NCBI GenBank assembly: GCA_017554445.1 | Contig: JAFZIJ010000186.1 | Coordinates: 1 to 64,000 of the forward strand | DNA from: Victivallales bacterium | GTDB taxonomy: Bacteria > Verrucomicrobiota > Lentisphaeria > Oligosphaerales > Oligosphaeraceae | DNA length: 64,000 nucleotides | Direction of reading: 5' to 3' | In this document: positions 1-59,884 of the stretch, piece by piece | How positions within the stretch are numbered: position 1 is the first letter of the stretch | Layout of the letters: each line of letters opens with the position of its first letter | The notes under the pieces: model-generated | What the model was told of the DNA's origin: nothing | The model's input: the letters and a program-made list of their open reading frames with translations, nothing else | Database searches by the model: none | Position numbers and translations under genes: made by a program

Positions 1-140
1 CATTAAACATTAAGCATTAAACATTAAGCATTAAACATTAAGCATTAAACATTAAGCATTAAACATTAAGCATTAAACATTAAGCATTAAACATTAAACA
101 TTAAGCATTAAGCATTCAGCATTCAGCATTCAGCATTAAA
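1..140. repeat. Tandem heptamer array (CATTAAA/CATTAAG), 20 units
   Basis: Twenty consecutive 7-bp units fill the interval without a phase slip. All fit CATT(A/C)A(A/G). Only positions 5 and 7 vary, and the AAA and AAG forms alternate strictly over the first twelve units. Three CATTCAG units lie near the right end. The array touches the window edge, so its true length is unknown. It lies just outside the left arm of the inverted repeat around the four-helix-bundle gene. Confidence 0.97.
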
Positions 141-160
141 AAAGGCTGCTCGGAAAAAGC

Positions 161-523
161 TCACACCAAACGCCGCTCAATCTCATGTATAATCCGCGAA
201 AAGATCGCCTCCATGGCGGCCGTATCGCCCTGTATTCCCTGTATCCGTTCATGCGGCAACAATCCACTTTCCTCTATCACGCTTAACCAAACCCGTGTGT
301 CCCGCAGCATCCGACGGCATTGCCGCAACTTCCGCGAGAACGCACGGTCAGAATCCATTTCACAAGCCGCATGATAACGCGGCAACAATCCCATAACCGC
401 CTGCAACAGCCCGGTCGCTACCTCTTGTGCTACCTGCCCAGACGGCATCCGGCCCGACAACGCCACTATTTCAGCCGTGTATCGGACTAGACGCCCATCC
501 AGACTCTCCGCTTCCATGTCCAT
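161..523 (-). CDS. Four-helix-bundle protein (S23 / 23S rRNA IVS-type, Avd fold)
   Basis: This 120-residue, almost entirely helical protein fits the four-helix-bundle family found in 23S rRNA intervening sequences, whose fold is shared by Avd of diversity-generating retroelements. The pattern seen is an N-terminal helix, a helix with VAQEVATGLLQAV, a basic helix with FSRKLRQCRRMLRDTRVWLSV, a short turn GLLP, and a last amphipathic helix ending in IIHEIERRL. Length matches the family (about 110-130). The molecular role of stand-alone members is not established; Avd is a basic pentamer that binds RNA and reverse transcriptase. No reverse transcriptase gene is in the window. An 18-bp inverted repeat encloses the gene and tandem arrays flank it. 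The start could also be the ATG two codons downstream. Confidence 0.75.
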   Translation of the reverse strand: MDMEAESLDGRLVRYTAEIVALSGRMPSGQVAQEVATGLLQAVMGLLPRYHAACEMDSDRAFSRKLRQCRRMLRDTRVWLSVIEESGLLPHERIQGIQGDTAAMEAIFSRIIHEIERRLV

Positions 524-561
524 TCTGTCCTGCGCCTGTTTTGGCTATTGCTTTTCTTCTT

Positions 562-579
562 CTTTTTCCAAGCAGCCTT
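562..579. repeat. Right arm of the 18-bp inverted repeat (left arm 142-159)
   Basis: CTTTTTCCAAGCAGCCTT is the reverse complement of 142-159 apart from one position. It lies 38 bases upstream of the four-helix-bundle start codon. Confidence 0.85.
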
Positions 580-634
580 GTTCTTCTTAATTCTTTATTA
601 GTCATATAAAATCATTCAAAGTCATAGTATTTTA

Positions 635-734
635 TATGATTATTTGTGATTCTATATGATTCCCTATGATTCTTTATTATTTTCTATGACTTTCTATGAC
701 TTTCTATGATTCTCTATGACTTTCCATGCTTTTC
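635..734. repeat. Tandem decamer array (TATGAYTNTC), 10 units
   Basis: Ten 10-bp units in exact phase, for example TATGATTCCC, TATGATTCTT, TATGACTTTC, TATGACTTTC and TATGATTCTC. TATGA is nearly constant; the other positions vary mainly C/T. Read on the minus strand, the array begins one base after the stop codon of the gene at 736-1104. It separates that gene from the inverted-repeat element. Confidence 0.9.
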
Positions 735-735
735 T

Positions 736-1104
736 TTACTTTTTCTCTGTCATTTTTTGGATTTCCTCCTCCATGCCATCATGCTCCGCATAGAGTGCAG
801 CCAACCGCGGTTCCGCGGCAGACAGCAACGAGCGACGCTGGTTCTCCAGTTCCTGCAGCTTGCTTGCCAAAACGTTGTCCGCCGCCGTTGCCGCCTTTTC
901 CAACTTCTTGATTTGACTCTTTTTGTAGAGAAGCTTGCCACGTAGTTTCGCCACGGGAGTCTTCTCCTTCTTCACCTCCTCCTCGACCTTTACAAACGTC
1001 TTTTCATCCTGCGGCGCAGGTTTTTCAGCCTCCTGCGCCATGGCGAGCCAGCCACCACATGACAGTAGCATCGCCAACATGCACCGACACAACAACTTTC
1101 TCAT
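736..1104 (-). CDS. Small exported coiled-coil protein, function unknown
   Basis: A 122-residue protein. It starts with a signal peptide (MRKLLCRCMLAMLLSC..., likely cut after AMA). A Lys/Glu-rich stretch follows, then a long charged helix with heptad character (KKSQIKKLEKAATAADN, SKLQELENQRRSLLS), suggesting a periplasmic coiled coil. I chose the ATG at 1104 because AAAGGAGGA lies just upstream; an in-frame start farther upstream would put Gly/Ala-rich sequence before the signal peptide. It is divergent from ssb across a 334-bp spacer. I do not recognise a family. Confidence 0.7.
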   Translation of the reverse strand: MRKLLCRCMLAMLLSCGGWLAMAQEAEKPAPQDEKTFVKVEEEVKKEKTPVAKLRGKLLYKKSQIKKLEKAATAADNVLASKLQELENQRRSLLSAAEPRLAALYAEHDGMEEEIQKMTEKK

Positions 1105-1438
1105 AATGAGTCCTCCTTTGGCGCCGCCAGCCGAACCTGTGCCGCCCATTTCACACCCGTCTTTCGTCGGAGTCCATCAGGCTCGGCCAGCGGCATTATC
1201 TTTCTGCATTTCATTAAAGGCATAAAAATGGCCTCCAGCGATTGACATAATAAAGATAAACCATTTTTTCATTAATGCAAATATTATTTCTTGCATTTTT
1301 CTTGAAAAATGAATTTTCCAATGTATTTTTCTTGTAAAACGTGACAACTGCCAAAATCAGTCGCCCTTACAGGAAATTTTCGTTTATTATATTATGGTAT
1401 AAACATGGAACACATCTCAAAGCAGGAGCAAACCAATC
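1105..1438. other. Divergent intergenic region upstream of ssb
   Basis: This 334-bp spacer separates two divergent genes. The half near ssb is AT-rich and contains a promoter candidate (1367-1395). TTGACA at 1242-1247 has no convincing -10 at normal spacing on the plus strand. I see no RNA gene or tandem array here. Confidence 0.5.
1367..1395 (+). promoter_or_regulatory. Candidate sigma70-type promoter for ssb
   Basis: TTACAG, 17 bases, then TATTAT, 44 bases ahead of the ssb start codon. It is the best -35/-10 pair in this spacer, judged by eye. Confidence 0.4.
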
Positions 1439-2269
1439 ATGGCGAACCTCAACAAAGTCCTTCTCATGGGTAATCTGACCCGTGAACCACAAAGCAAAGC
1501 CCTCCCGCAAAACGGGACTCCCGTCTGCGATTTGGGAATGGCCGTCAATCGCCGTTACAAAACGCAGTCCGGCGAAGAGCGTGAAGACGTCGTTTACGTT
1601 GATCTGACCGCATACGGTTACCAGGCCGATTTCTGCGTCAAAAACATGACCAAAGGCTCCACCGTCTATGTGGAGGGCCATCTGCGTTACGAGAGCTGGC
1701 AGGATAAGGATACAGGGAAGACCCGTTCAAAGCTACGCGTCATCGTCGACACAATCCTCCATTTGGAGAAACGAACTGCAGAACTTATTGAACCACAGGC
1801 ATATCCGCCCATGGGCTACGGCCAACAGCCGCCCTATTCCGCTCCGGCCTACGGCCAGCCCATGCCGAACTACGGTTATCTGCAGCCGCCGCCCCCCTAT
1901 CCCCCCGCGCAACAGCCATACCAGCCACTGCCACAACAGCCATACCAGCCATTGCCGCAACAACCGCAACAAGTTGCGCAACCGCCTGTTCAACAACAAC
2001 CGCCTGCACAACAACCCGCACAATCAGTGCAGCAGCCGCAAGTTGCTCCCATGCAACAGTCTCCGCAGCAAAAGGCGGCTCCGCAACAGCCTGTCCAACA
2101 GCAACAGCCTGCGCAACAAGCGGCTCCGCAACAGCCTGTCCAGCAGCAACAGCCTGCGCCGCAGCCGCAAGCCGATCCGCCACCAGCGCAACCTCCTCCA
2201 CAGCCCTCTCAGCTCGCGCCGACATCGGCCAAGGCAGATGAAGAAGTTGTTGACGACATGCCGTTCTGA
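1439..2269 (+). CDS. ssb: Single-stranded DNA-binding protein
   Basis: SSB coats single-stranded DNA during replication, recombination and repair and recruits partners through its acidic tip. Residues 1-112 are a typical OB-fold domain (start MANLNKVLLMGNLTREP, then TAYGYQADF and VEGHLRYESW). A low-complexity linker rich in Gln, Pro and Ala (about 120-255) follows, then the conserved tip DDMPF at 272-276. The total of 276 residues is well above the usual 150-180, entirely because of the linker. A likely SD (AGCAGGAGC) precedes the ATG. rsmE follows after 18 bases, so they are probably co-transcribed. Confidence 0.97.
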   Translation: MANLNKVLLMGNLTREPQSKALPQNGTPVCDLGMAVNRRYKTQSGEEREDVVYVDLTAYGYQADFCVKNMTKGSTVYVEGHLRYESWQDKDTGKTRSKLRVIVDTILHLEKRTAELIEPQAYPPMGYGQQPPYSAPAYGQPMPNYGYLQPPPPYPPAQQPYQPLPQQPYQPLPQQPQQVAQPPVQQQPPAQQPAQSVQQPQVAPMQQSPQQKAAPQQPVQQQQPAQQAAPQQPVQQQQPAPQPQADPPPAQPPPQPSQLAPTSAKADEEVVDDMPF

Positions 2270-2287: not shown

Positions 2288-3004
2288 ATGCCAAGCTATT
2301 ACGTTCCAAAGACTTTCACAGTCGGCGAAACCGTTCGCCTCTCGGCGGAAGAAACCGCCCACGCCTTGCGCGTCATGCGTATCGAGCCAGGCGAACGGTT
2401 GACACTTCTCAACGGACAAGGCGGCCGCGCGTCCGCCATCCTTTTGGATGACGGACCGACACGCAAGATCCGCGAAGCCTCCTGCCGCATTGAGTCAACG
2501 GAAATCGTTCCGCGGCCACAACTATCGATCATCCTGTATGTAGCGCCGCCGCGCAACAAAAACATGGACACAGTGCTGAAATCCGCGACAGAGCTTGGTG
2601 TGGCCCGCATCGTTCCCGTCATTTGCCGTTACGCCGTCTCTCGACCGGATGCGTCCGCCATCGAATCATGGTCGCAAACGCTTGTCACCGCCATGAAGCA
2701 ATCAGGCAACCCATGGTTGCCTGAACTGGATGCGCCGCAAGCATTTAGCGAAGCATTAACCTACAGCGACGAAGATGGCTTCTTCGGTGCCGTTCCGCAG
2801 TCGGATGATCTCCAGGCATCCGACTTTCCCTACACGCCAGACCGCCTTTCATTGTGGGTCGGCCCCGAAGGCGGATTTTCACCAGAAGAGGAGCAAGCCC
2901 TTCGAAAGAAAGGGCTTCTGCCTCTGACCATTGGGCCGTGGATTCTGCGCGTCGAAACCGCCGTCACGGCCCTCATCGGTTCCCTGCTCACACAATTCCA
3001 TTGA
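2288..3004 (+). CDS. rsmE: 16S rRNA (uracil-1498-N3)-methyltransferase
   Basis: RsmE uses SAM to methylate N3 of U1498 in helix 44 of 16S rRNA. The 238-residue length is normal. An N-terminal PUA-like part (SAEETAHALRVMRIEPGE) is followed by the SPOUT knot with GPEGGF at 192-197 and ILRVETAVTAL near 219-229, the SAM-binding signature of the family. It lies between ssb and an unassigned protein whose ATG is one base after this stop codon, so it is operonic. Confidence 0.96.
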   Translation: MPSYYVPKTFTVGETVRLSAEETAHALRVMRIEPGERLTLLNGQGGRASAILLDDGPTRKIREASCRIESTEIVPRPQLSIILYVAPPRNKNMDTVLKSATELGVARIVPVICRYAVSRPDASAIESWSQTLVTAMKQSGNPWLPELDAPQAFSEALTYSDEDGFFGAVPQSDDLQASDFPYTPDRLSLWVGPEGGFSPEEEQALRKKGLLPLTIGPWILRVETAVTALIGSLLTQFH

Positions 3005-56565: not shown

Positions 56566-56770
56566 CTCCGCACCTCTGCGTCTCTGCGTCTCTGTGTTAA
56601 AAACTCTGTGCCTCTGTGTCTCGGTGTTAAAAACTCTTTGTCTCTACGTTAAAAACTCTGTGCCTCTGTGTCTCGGTGTTAAAAACTCTGTGCCTCTGTG
56701 TCTCGGTGTTAAAAACTCTGTGCCTCTGTGTCTCGGTGTTAAAAACTCTGTGCCTCTGTGTCTCGGTGTT
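56566..56770. repeat. 30-bp tandem array of CTCTGTG words
   Basis: The sequence starts with shorter units (CTCTGCGTCTCTGCGTCTCTG) and settles into a 30-bp unit, TCTCGGTGTTAAAAACTCTG plus TGCCTCTGTG. Full copies or starts are at 56611, 56671, 56701, 56731 and 56761. One shortened variant at 56641 keeps the phase. The last four are nearly identical. It fills the spacer between the GNAT and SDR genes. Confidence 0.95.
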
Positions 56771-56793
56771 AAAATAAATTAAGGAAATAATGC

Positions 56794-58722: not shown

Positions 58723-59850
58723 ATGAAAAACATCGCTGAACTTGATCCTGCCATGGCCATCAAACCTGCGGACGCCGACGGCGTCGCATGGCATCTCCCC
58801 TTCGAAGCTCCTATGAAGCTCTGCGGCTTCCATTGGTTTGATACCGACAAACTGTATGAACGCCTGCCGATGGACCGCCCGGAAACCGTCACACGCTTTC
58901 CCAACGGCGAACCGCAAGTCATTCCGTCGAAAGACTGCGGCGCCATTCAATTGAGCAGTAACACGGCCGGCGGACAGGTCCGTTTCCGCACAGACAGTTC
59001 TAGATTCCTTATCCAAGCCACGTTAGCCGCCACAGGCGGCATGGACCACATGGCCTTCACGGGTAGCGCAGGATTCGACATCTACATCAAAAGCGGCGAC
59101 ATCTGGAAATGCCTCGGCGTGACGCGCACCGACCATTCGAAGCGCGATTTCACGACCACTGTTCGCGCAGGACTGAAGCGCGACATGCGCGATGTCATTA
59201 TCAACTTCCCGCTCTACAACGGCGTCAAATCCCTTGCCATCGGACTTGATGACGATGCGAAGCTAGAAGCACCCACGCCGTTTGTTGATGACCGTCCCGC
59301 TGTCATGTACGGCACGTCCATCACGCAGGGCGGATGCGCCACACGCCCGGGCATGTGCTCCACCAACATCCTTTCCCGCATGCTGAACCGCGAAGTCATC
59401 AATCTTGGCTTCTCCGGCAATGGCCGCGGCGAGCCGGAAATCGCCGCCATGCTGGCCGACATCAAGAATCCGTCGCTGTATATGCTTGACTACTGCTGGA
59501 ATACAGTCATCAAGGAGTTCGCCGTCACGTTGCCGAACGTCATTGACATCATCCGCGCCAAGCATCCGACAACGCCGATTCTGCTAGTCGCCCCCACGCC
59601 CGGCGTGGAAATCTACGAAGAGCTCCAGAATCCGTCGCCGCGGCTCTCCACGCAGACGCTCATCATGCTGGAAGAGACGCAGAAACGCAACAAGAACGGC
59701 GACGCCAACGTGTTCTTCTTCAACGGCTTCACGGAATCCGTCGGTGAAGATTTCTGGGAAGGCATGGTCGACGGCTGCCACATGACGGATCTCGGCTTCC
59801 TGCGCTTCTCGGAAGCGATTCTGCCGCATATCCAGAAGATTCTGAAATAA
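58723..59850 (+). CDS. SGNH/GDSL-family hydrolase with N-terminal sandwich domain
   Basis: A 375-residue protein. Residues to about 175 look like a beta-sandwich domain (MDHMAFTGSAGFDIYI). The hydrolase core has the block I serine in VMYGTSITQGG, block II in GFSGNGRG, LDYCWNT as block III-like sequence, and DGCHMTDLG carrying the Asp/His pair. No signal peptide. It may deacetylate sugars or oligosaccharides entering this pathway. A heptamer array begins at its stop codon. Confidence 0.88.
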   Translation: MKNIAELDPAMAIKPADADGVAWHLPFEAPMKLCGFHWFDTDKLYERLPMDRPETVTRFPNGEPQVIPSKDCGAIQLSSNTAGGQVRFRTDSSRFLIQATLAATGGMDHMAFTGSAGFDIYIKSGDIWKCLGVTRTDHSKRDFTTTVRAGLKRDMRDVIINFPLYNGVKSLAIGLDDDAKLEAPTPFVDDRPAVMYGTSITQGGCATRPGMCSTNILSRMLNREVINLGFSGNGRGEPEIAAMLADIKNPSLYMLDYCWNTVIKEFAVTLPNVIDIIRAKHPTTPILLVAPTPGVEIYEELQNPSPRLSTQTLIMLEETQKRNKNGDANVFFFNGFTESVGEDFWEGMVDGCHMTDLGFLRFSEAILPHIQKILK

Positions 59851-59884
59851 TGATTAATGATTAATGTTTAATGATTAATGATTT
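59850..59884. repeat. Tandem heptamer array (ATGATTA), 5 units
   Basis: ATGATTA, ATGATTA, ATGTTTA, ATGATTA and ATGATTT in exact phase, starting at the last base of a stop codon. ATGTTTA is a rotation of the reverse complement of CATTAAA, the unit at 1-140. Confidence 0.95.

Follow-up and report, generated by a model that had tools for sequence, protein, structure and literature searches.

Inverted heptamer arrays around genes of the S23/Avd-fold family, and an atypical copy beside host repeats in a Victivallales genome

TIGR02436 genes, which encode four-helix-bundle proteins of the S23/Avd fold, are usually the sole gene inside a gene-length inverted repeat whose arms are degenerate tandem heptamers. 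The heptamer varies from locus to locus and is the same, inverted, on both sides of the gene, with the G-rich strand forming the 5′ arm. The unit tracks the protein subfamily, even between phyla, and at one site in the genus g70, which we take to be Akkermansia, gene and arms are either both present or both missing. The locus from which the analysis set out is ordinary, comprising a conserved S23/Avd-fold gene, a conserved long-range inverted repeat and unrelated host repeats adjoining it; as a copy of the layout it is atypical, with short non-repetitive arms. Beyond it, a widespread layout in which protein and repeat correspond is not ordinary and fits a compact element.

The window gene, its arms and the adjoining repeats

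The window, the whole stretch of 64,000 nucleotides that was analysed, begins together with contig C172 of a 4.9-Mb draft genome (G000; Table 1). A sequence-only reading had described 18-bp arms, AAGGCTGCT[C/T]GGAAAAAG at 142–159 (+) and 562–579 (−), enclosing a single S23/Avd-fold open reading frame, and coordinates, profile and structural model all agree with it. The product scores above the TIGR02436 cut-off (29.2 bits against 24 in a profile search) and does not reach that of Pfam PF05635, 23S_rRNA_IVP (15.4 against 33.8). An AlphaFold2 model built with 18 relatives (pLDDT 95) is a four-helix bundle, with helices at 2–24, 30–44/46–54, 59–86 and 91–119, and Foldseek matched it to BT_0352 (2rld), Xcc0516 (2gsc) and phage Avd (4dwl), with TM 0.73–0.83 for these three, and to a DGR ribonucleoprotein (8ub7). 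By this predicted fold the protein is a divergent member of the S23/Avd-fold family; it lacks the SxPxNIAEG-type motif of the main branch and has LLPRYHAACEMDS in its stead.

Table 1. Features at the start of the window
Feature	Coordinates	Strand	Remarks
7-bp array CATTAAG	1..139	.	TRF; cut by contig start, goes on in contig C182
3′ arm, gene strand CTTTTTCCGAGCAGCCTT	142..159	(−)	stop codon 1 base before
Four-helix-bundle (S23/Avd-fold) gene	161..523	(−)	120 aa; TIGR02436, AlphaFold2, Foldseek, dN/dS, orthologs
5′ arm, gene strand AAGGCTGCTTGGAAAAAG	562..579	(−)	18/18 pairs in G000 and G002, 17/18 in G003; closing helix
10-bp direct-repeat array AGTCATAGAA	600..731	(−)	upstream of gene; two units, 600–626, inverted
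Small putative exported-protein gene	736..1107	(−)	conserved, synteny marker; same order in G001–G004
ssb	1439–2269	+	beyond exported-protein gene; neighbourhood order kept in G001–G004
rsmE	2288–3004	+	after ssb; neighbourhood order kept in G001–G004

Orthologs in the sister species G002 and G003 are 93 and 92.5% identical in amino acids, lie at the same locus and are conserved like their neighbours, and the gene is under purifying selection in the three species (dN/dS 0.09–0.18). In G001 and G004, more distant members of the same genus, the ortholog is at 30% identity and the neighbours at 48–55%. The window gene is thus vertically inherited, kept in place and under selection, not jumping. 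Its arms enclose no transposase or other mobility enzyme, the helical bundle being their sole content, and no reverse transcriptase or template/variable repeat was recognised next to the gene among the open reading frames of the first 6 kb.

The window arms are unique in a search of the whole genome. Extended to 139–159/562–582 they span 21 nt at 90% complementarity; in Markov shuffles of the window flanks their score was reached 2 times in 1000, and 13 of 646 real control genes attain that score (16). They are non-periodic rather than heptameric, and the heptamer array lies outside them on one side only. Arms had been expected around homologues as well: they pair in G002 and G003, and no comparable arms surround the G001 and G004 orthologs. 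In the window species and its two sisters standard pairing is found in 53 of the 54 arm pair cells, or 98% as against 43–67% with the register slid. Ten of the 18 pairs vary, one of them altered on both sides, and the changed cells comprise eight G–U pairs and one broken pair. In a predicted fold of the element as RNA the arms form the centroid closing helix, with z −4.1 for the whole fold. These features speak for an IVS-like RNA element, whose arms would pair in the transcript, whose stem would be cut by RNase III and whose protein would bind the excised or stem-loop RNA, a reading that we nevertheless consider rather unlikely in view of the family-wide mismatch counts given below. Covariation was dropped as proof of a stem, the count not being significant with three sequences only (169 of 500 shuffles).

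The two flanking arrays of the sequence-only reading are both present, the 10-bp array lying 20–50 bp from the arm and not touching it. The CATTAAG array is longer than visible, because the contig starts inside it and contig C182 continues the same array: C182 opens with about 207 bp of CATTAAG, followed by the gene that lies downstream of the element in G003 and G002. It is very probably (L385, G000:C182:1–3000) the leftward continuation of the window past base 1 across this array. CATTAAG is found 3′ of the gene in G003, and other repeats instead in G002. The heptamer is scattered genome-wide (111 matches, counted with overlaps, as against 0 for the reversed one), and 13 stretches around such matches in the same genome held no four-helix-bundle gene.

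The 10-bp array keeps strict 10-bp phase in all three species, and its unit pair has ten matches in the window against 0.11 expected. Apart from the window site it was found at L405, L413, L406, L407, L409 and L418, each site in two species: upstream of a ComEC/Rec2 protein gene in G002 and G003 (PF03772, E 2.5e-35), of an Rpn-like gene in G000 and G003 (TIGR01784, 28.6 bits, under the 52.1 cut-off) and of another gene, whose product has no family match, in G000 and G002. A promoter sought between the array and the window gene gave weak matches only. From its placement before these genes the array is probably a host regulatory box, the candidate binding site of a host regulator, and in the window genus the four-helix-bundle gene would apparently have been retained in place under a box shared with comEC. 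A regulon of DNA uptake or recombination that takes in the four-helix-bundle gene is one possibility.

Because CATTAAG is dispersed without such genes, and comEC and the Rpn-like gene have the 10-bp array before them as well, the two window arrays lie outside any protein–array system, and their candidacy as parts of the element was rejected. The earlier suggestion of a single system comprising protein and arrays therefore fails for these two host repeat families and survives for the family at large, by the enrichment described next.

Inverted arms across the family

A first sample of 60 four-helix-bundle loci came from the window's phylum, and 79 loci were then collected by profile across all phyla. 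The S23/IVS protein family is present in 228 of 289 genomes sampled from the window's phylum, and hosts include Clostridia, Planctomycetes, Proteobacteria, Bacteroidota, Acidobacteria, CPR and Methanophagales archaea. The suspected enrichment of arrays near these genes was borne out: within 100 bp, arrays accompany 47/79 four-helix-bundle genes against 48/397 control genes in the window's phylum, and 54/81 against 35/286 in other phyla. The 5′ flank aligns with the reverse complement of the 3′ flank in 61/75 cases against 23/385 controls in the window's phylum and in 62/79 against 16/264 elsewhere. Pooled, inverted-repeat flanks occur at 121 of 152 four-helix-bundle genes (80%) and 39 of 646 controls (p 7e-78); short control genes with intergenic flanks reach 6 of 97 (p 5e-33).

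The arms have an autocorrelation of 0.67 at lag 7 and 0.66 at lag 14, with about 0.25 elsewhere, and are situated near start and stop codons in both samples. On the gene strand G outnumbers C in the 5′ arm at 112 of the 119 decided loci, and C outnumbers G at 7 (p 2e-25; controls 11 against 19). This near-constant placement of the G-rich arm indicates that strand matters, a point in favour of the RNA reading. The window gene's nearest subfamily relatives, from the same order, have arms of more than 100 nt (L040, L042, L048).

If pairing were kept on the gene strand, as in an RNA stem, G–U mismatches should exceed A–C mismatches. They were not commoner in either comparison (86 against 109, and 93 against 111; 124 loci), so that general selection for an RNA stem is unsupported, and the arms have rather the appearance of inverted repeats in DNA or of sites for a protein. 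The few data of the window trio tend in the opposite direction.

This mismatch symmetry is compatible with copying at the DNA level, and would suit an account with no system at all, in which neutral heptamers are dispersed, inverted copies around short genes both originate and are kept alike by quasi-palindrome template switching, and four-helix-bundle genes simply tolerate them. The wide occurrence of tracts on their own fits this account: 166 of 339 heptamer tracts lie within 300 bp of a four-helix-bundle gene (30 expected), and the other 173 away from one, just as CATTAAG tracts are scattered gene-free in the window's genome; base-paired heptanucleotide hairpins also occur in the Nostoc tRNA-Leu intron (PMC3488679). 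We regard it as unlikely, given the enrichment at this family over matched short genes, the fixed strand orientation and the behaviour of the unit set out in the next section. The 173 tracts, the absence of heptamer arms from the window copy and that of any comparable arms from the G001 and G004 orthologs also weigh against the reading as an element.

In contigs C109, C146 and C172 of the window's genome, and in many relatives, four-helix-bundle genes are often no more than a few hundred bases away from the end of a contig, a position to be expected where assembly breaks off in their arrays. Three control open reading frames without a four-helix-bundle match (L100:15936–16463, L215:3205–3828, L162:316–2085) sit in strong inverted repeats, formed by short tandem units in at least the first two; they may be gene-less derivatives or other gene families with a like layout. 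Phage carriage was rejected, a tblastn search with one relative (L082) having matched no phage record; the search matched 40 plasmid records, a good many of cyanobacterial origin.

Heptamer units, protein subfamilies and the g70 site

Units differ among elements of a single contig (L086, L100, L112). Between loci, the mean heptamer match rises with protein identity, from 3.5 of 7 below 35% to 5.1 at 60–70% and 6.3 above 70%, a correlation reached by none of 500 permutations, and match to the reverse complement is flat (3.2–3.4 below 70% identity; 3.9 in the seven pairs above). TAGTGGN units are common to related proteins from the window's phylum, Clostridia and a gammaproteobacterium. That the unit follows the subfamily across phyla tells against neutral dispersal; simple co-inheritance of a physical unit would also yield the correlation, which counts against the element reading.

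Of the solo arrays at distances above 1 kb from the gene, 56% have the unit of the local gene, where 3.9% is expected and the largest of 1000 permutations gave 14.8%, again at odds with neutral dispersal. A few of these unit-matching arrays lie inside longer repeats, such as a series spaced at 99 bp in L156. There, at 689–1313, each of the tandem repeats of about 99 bp has a CCTGAAA heptamer patch, and CCTGAAA is also the heptamer used by the four-helix-bundle element of that genome. In the window a TAATGAT heptamer array directly follows a stop codon at 59848–59883; it resembles the TAATGAG/AATGATT arms of a four-helix-bundle gene on contig C109 of the same genome.

In one clade of g70 the element lies between fucose-isomerase-like (fucI) and rhamnulokinase-like genes, in an intergenic stretch of 432–503 bp, and several other g70 species have 63–118 bp at this site, mostly just a terminator-like hairpin. 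The empty sites were located with a rhamnulokinase-like protein query; a DNA search with the G234 locus found none, the flanks having diverged. Inside the clade there are two groups that differ in unit at both arms; in addition, each arm of L302 counts six heptamers, as against four in L295–L298. The occupied site is inherited in place, not jumping, a further point against the element reading.

Regulatory repeats alone, with the arms as operators or translational control in autoregulation and no element-like behaviour, might be proposed from the position of the arms near start and stop codons and from the regulatory-box-like 10-bp array before several genes. An operator, however, would not require a second, inverted copy after the gene, arrays with this unit also stand alone at distances of kilobases, and at the g70 site gene and arms are missing together; we think this explanation very improbable.

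A possible element and its relation to known systems

Whether these are free-standing elements whose protein recognises its own heptamers seems to us evenly poised, recognition and movement being the parts that we infer. The protein would recognise its own heptamers, as DNA or RNA, at both ends and pair the two, marking the unit so that host enzymes, either those of recombination or, on the model of Avd, a reverse transcriptase, could copy or move it. Solo arrays would then serve as targets or represent derivatives devoid of the gene. Among relatives of the protein, 2GSC and bAvd assemble into rings of five; that the four-helix-bundle protein has no nameable catalytic motif tells against the proposal. 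A broader proposal, which we advance tentatively and regard as somewhat doubtful, is that S23/Avd-fold proteins are sequence-specific heptamer recognisers, one heptamer per subfamily, that gene and inverted arrays make up undescribed, widespread and compact mobile elements in bacteria and archaea, and that the 23S rRNA IVS is the rRNA-inserted case and Avd the retroelement-recruited one.

The 23S rRNA intervening sequences of Coxiella and Leptospira, with their S23p open reading frame (PF05635, TIGR02436), share family, fold and the arrangement of one open reading frame in complementary ends. The likeness extends to the heptamers, GACAGAT in Coxiella, that lie upstream of the S23p frame in addition to a 28-bp terminal stem (PMC4990558), and this equal layout argues for the RNA reading. 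In contrast, the elements described here are free-standing, as the sequence-only reading had it: the neighbours of the window gene are protein genes and no 16S or 23S motif occurs in any of the loci searched, an absence of 23S rRNA context that goes against the RNA reading. They differ, too, in that their arms are usually heptamer arrays whose unit tracks the protein and that lack an excess of G–U pairs. Of the earlier description as IVS-like, then, the layout and the G–U-preserving pairing in the window trio (eight against one broken) stand, and a preference for G–U over A–C across loci does not.

Avd acts in a nucleoprotein complex with reverse transcriptase. Avd of the diversity-generating retroelements shares the fold (4dwl, 8ub7) at a sequence identity of only about 15%, and PF05635 has been likened to it (PMC10053308). 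Degenerate 7-base repeats are familiar from the heptanucleotide-repeat hairpin P6b of the Nostoc tRNA-Leu intron (PMC3488679), where, as here, the repeats base-pair across the two sides, from cyanobacterial STRR and from the intergenic TAACTGA arrays of Beggiatoaceae (PMC4679880). Unlike the arms described here, these have no protein gene described inside and no protein-family link reported in the literature examined. Insertion sequences and other terminal-inverted-repeat elements likewise carry a single small gene between inverted ends, and gain or loss as a unit is seen here at one site; the present loci differ in having no transposase, ends that are locus-specific heptamer arrays and no visible target duplication. 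Searches of an open-access library turned up no account of inverted heptamer arrays around free-standing members of the family.

The function of the S23/IVS protein has been termed unknown (PMC4990558), and a protein–heptamer link would offer the family a candidate ligand, its own heptamer. It would also account for a considerable share of bacterial heptamer arrays and suggest a reason for the presence of such genes at assembly breaks. The family has been listed as CRISPR-associated or near CRISPR loci (PMC3936711, PMC10910872), perhaps because short repeats can fool array finders.

The layout is not unique to the four-helix-bundle family, because GxxExxY genes (TIGR04256, PDDEXK_3) show a similar one with other arms: at 19 of 29 loci they lie within inverted repeats with arms of their own, TTAACCACAGAG. 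A gene in an inverted array may accordingly be a wider principle, in which the protein may be exchangeable. One GxxExxY arm, TTAACCACAGAGGCACAGAGGACACAGAG, is recurrent (loci L325–L354, and L127:3570–3953). At 56574–56774 the window itself has an array without a GxxExxY gene, made up of seven 30-bp units, CTCTGTGCCTCTGTGTCTCGGTGTTAAAAA, that lie between two protein genes and are of the sequence type of the GxxExxY 3′ arm.
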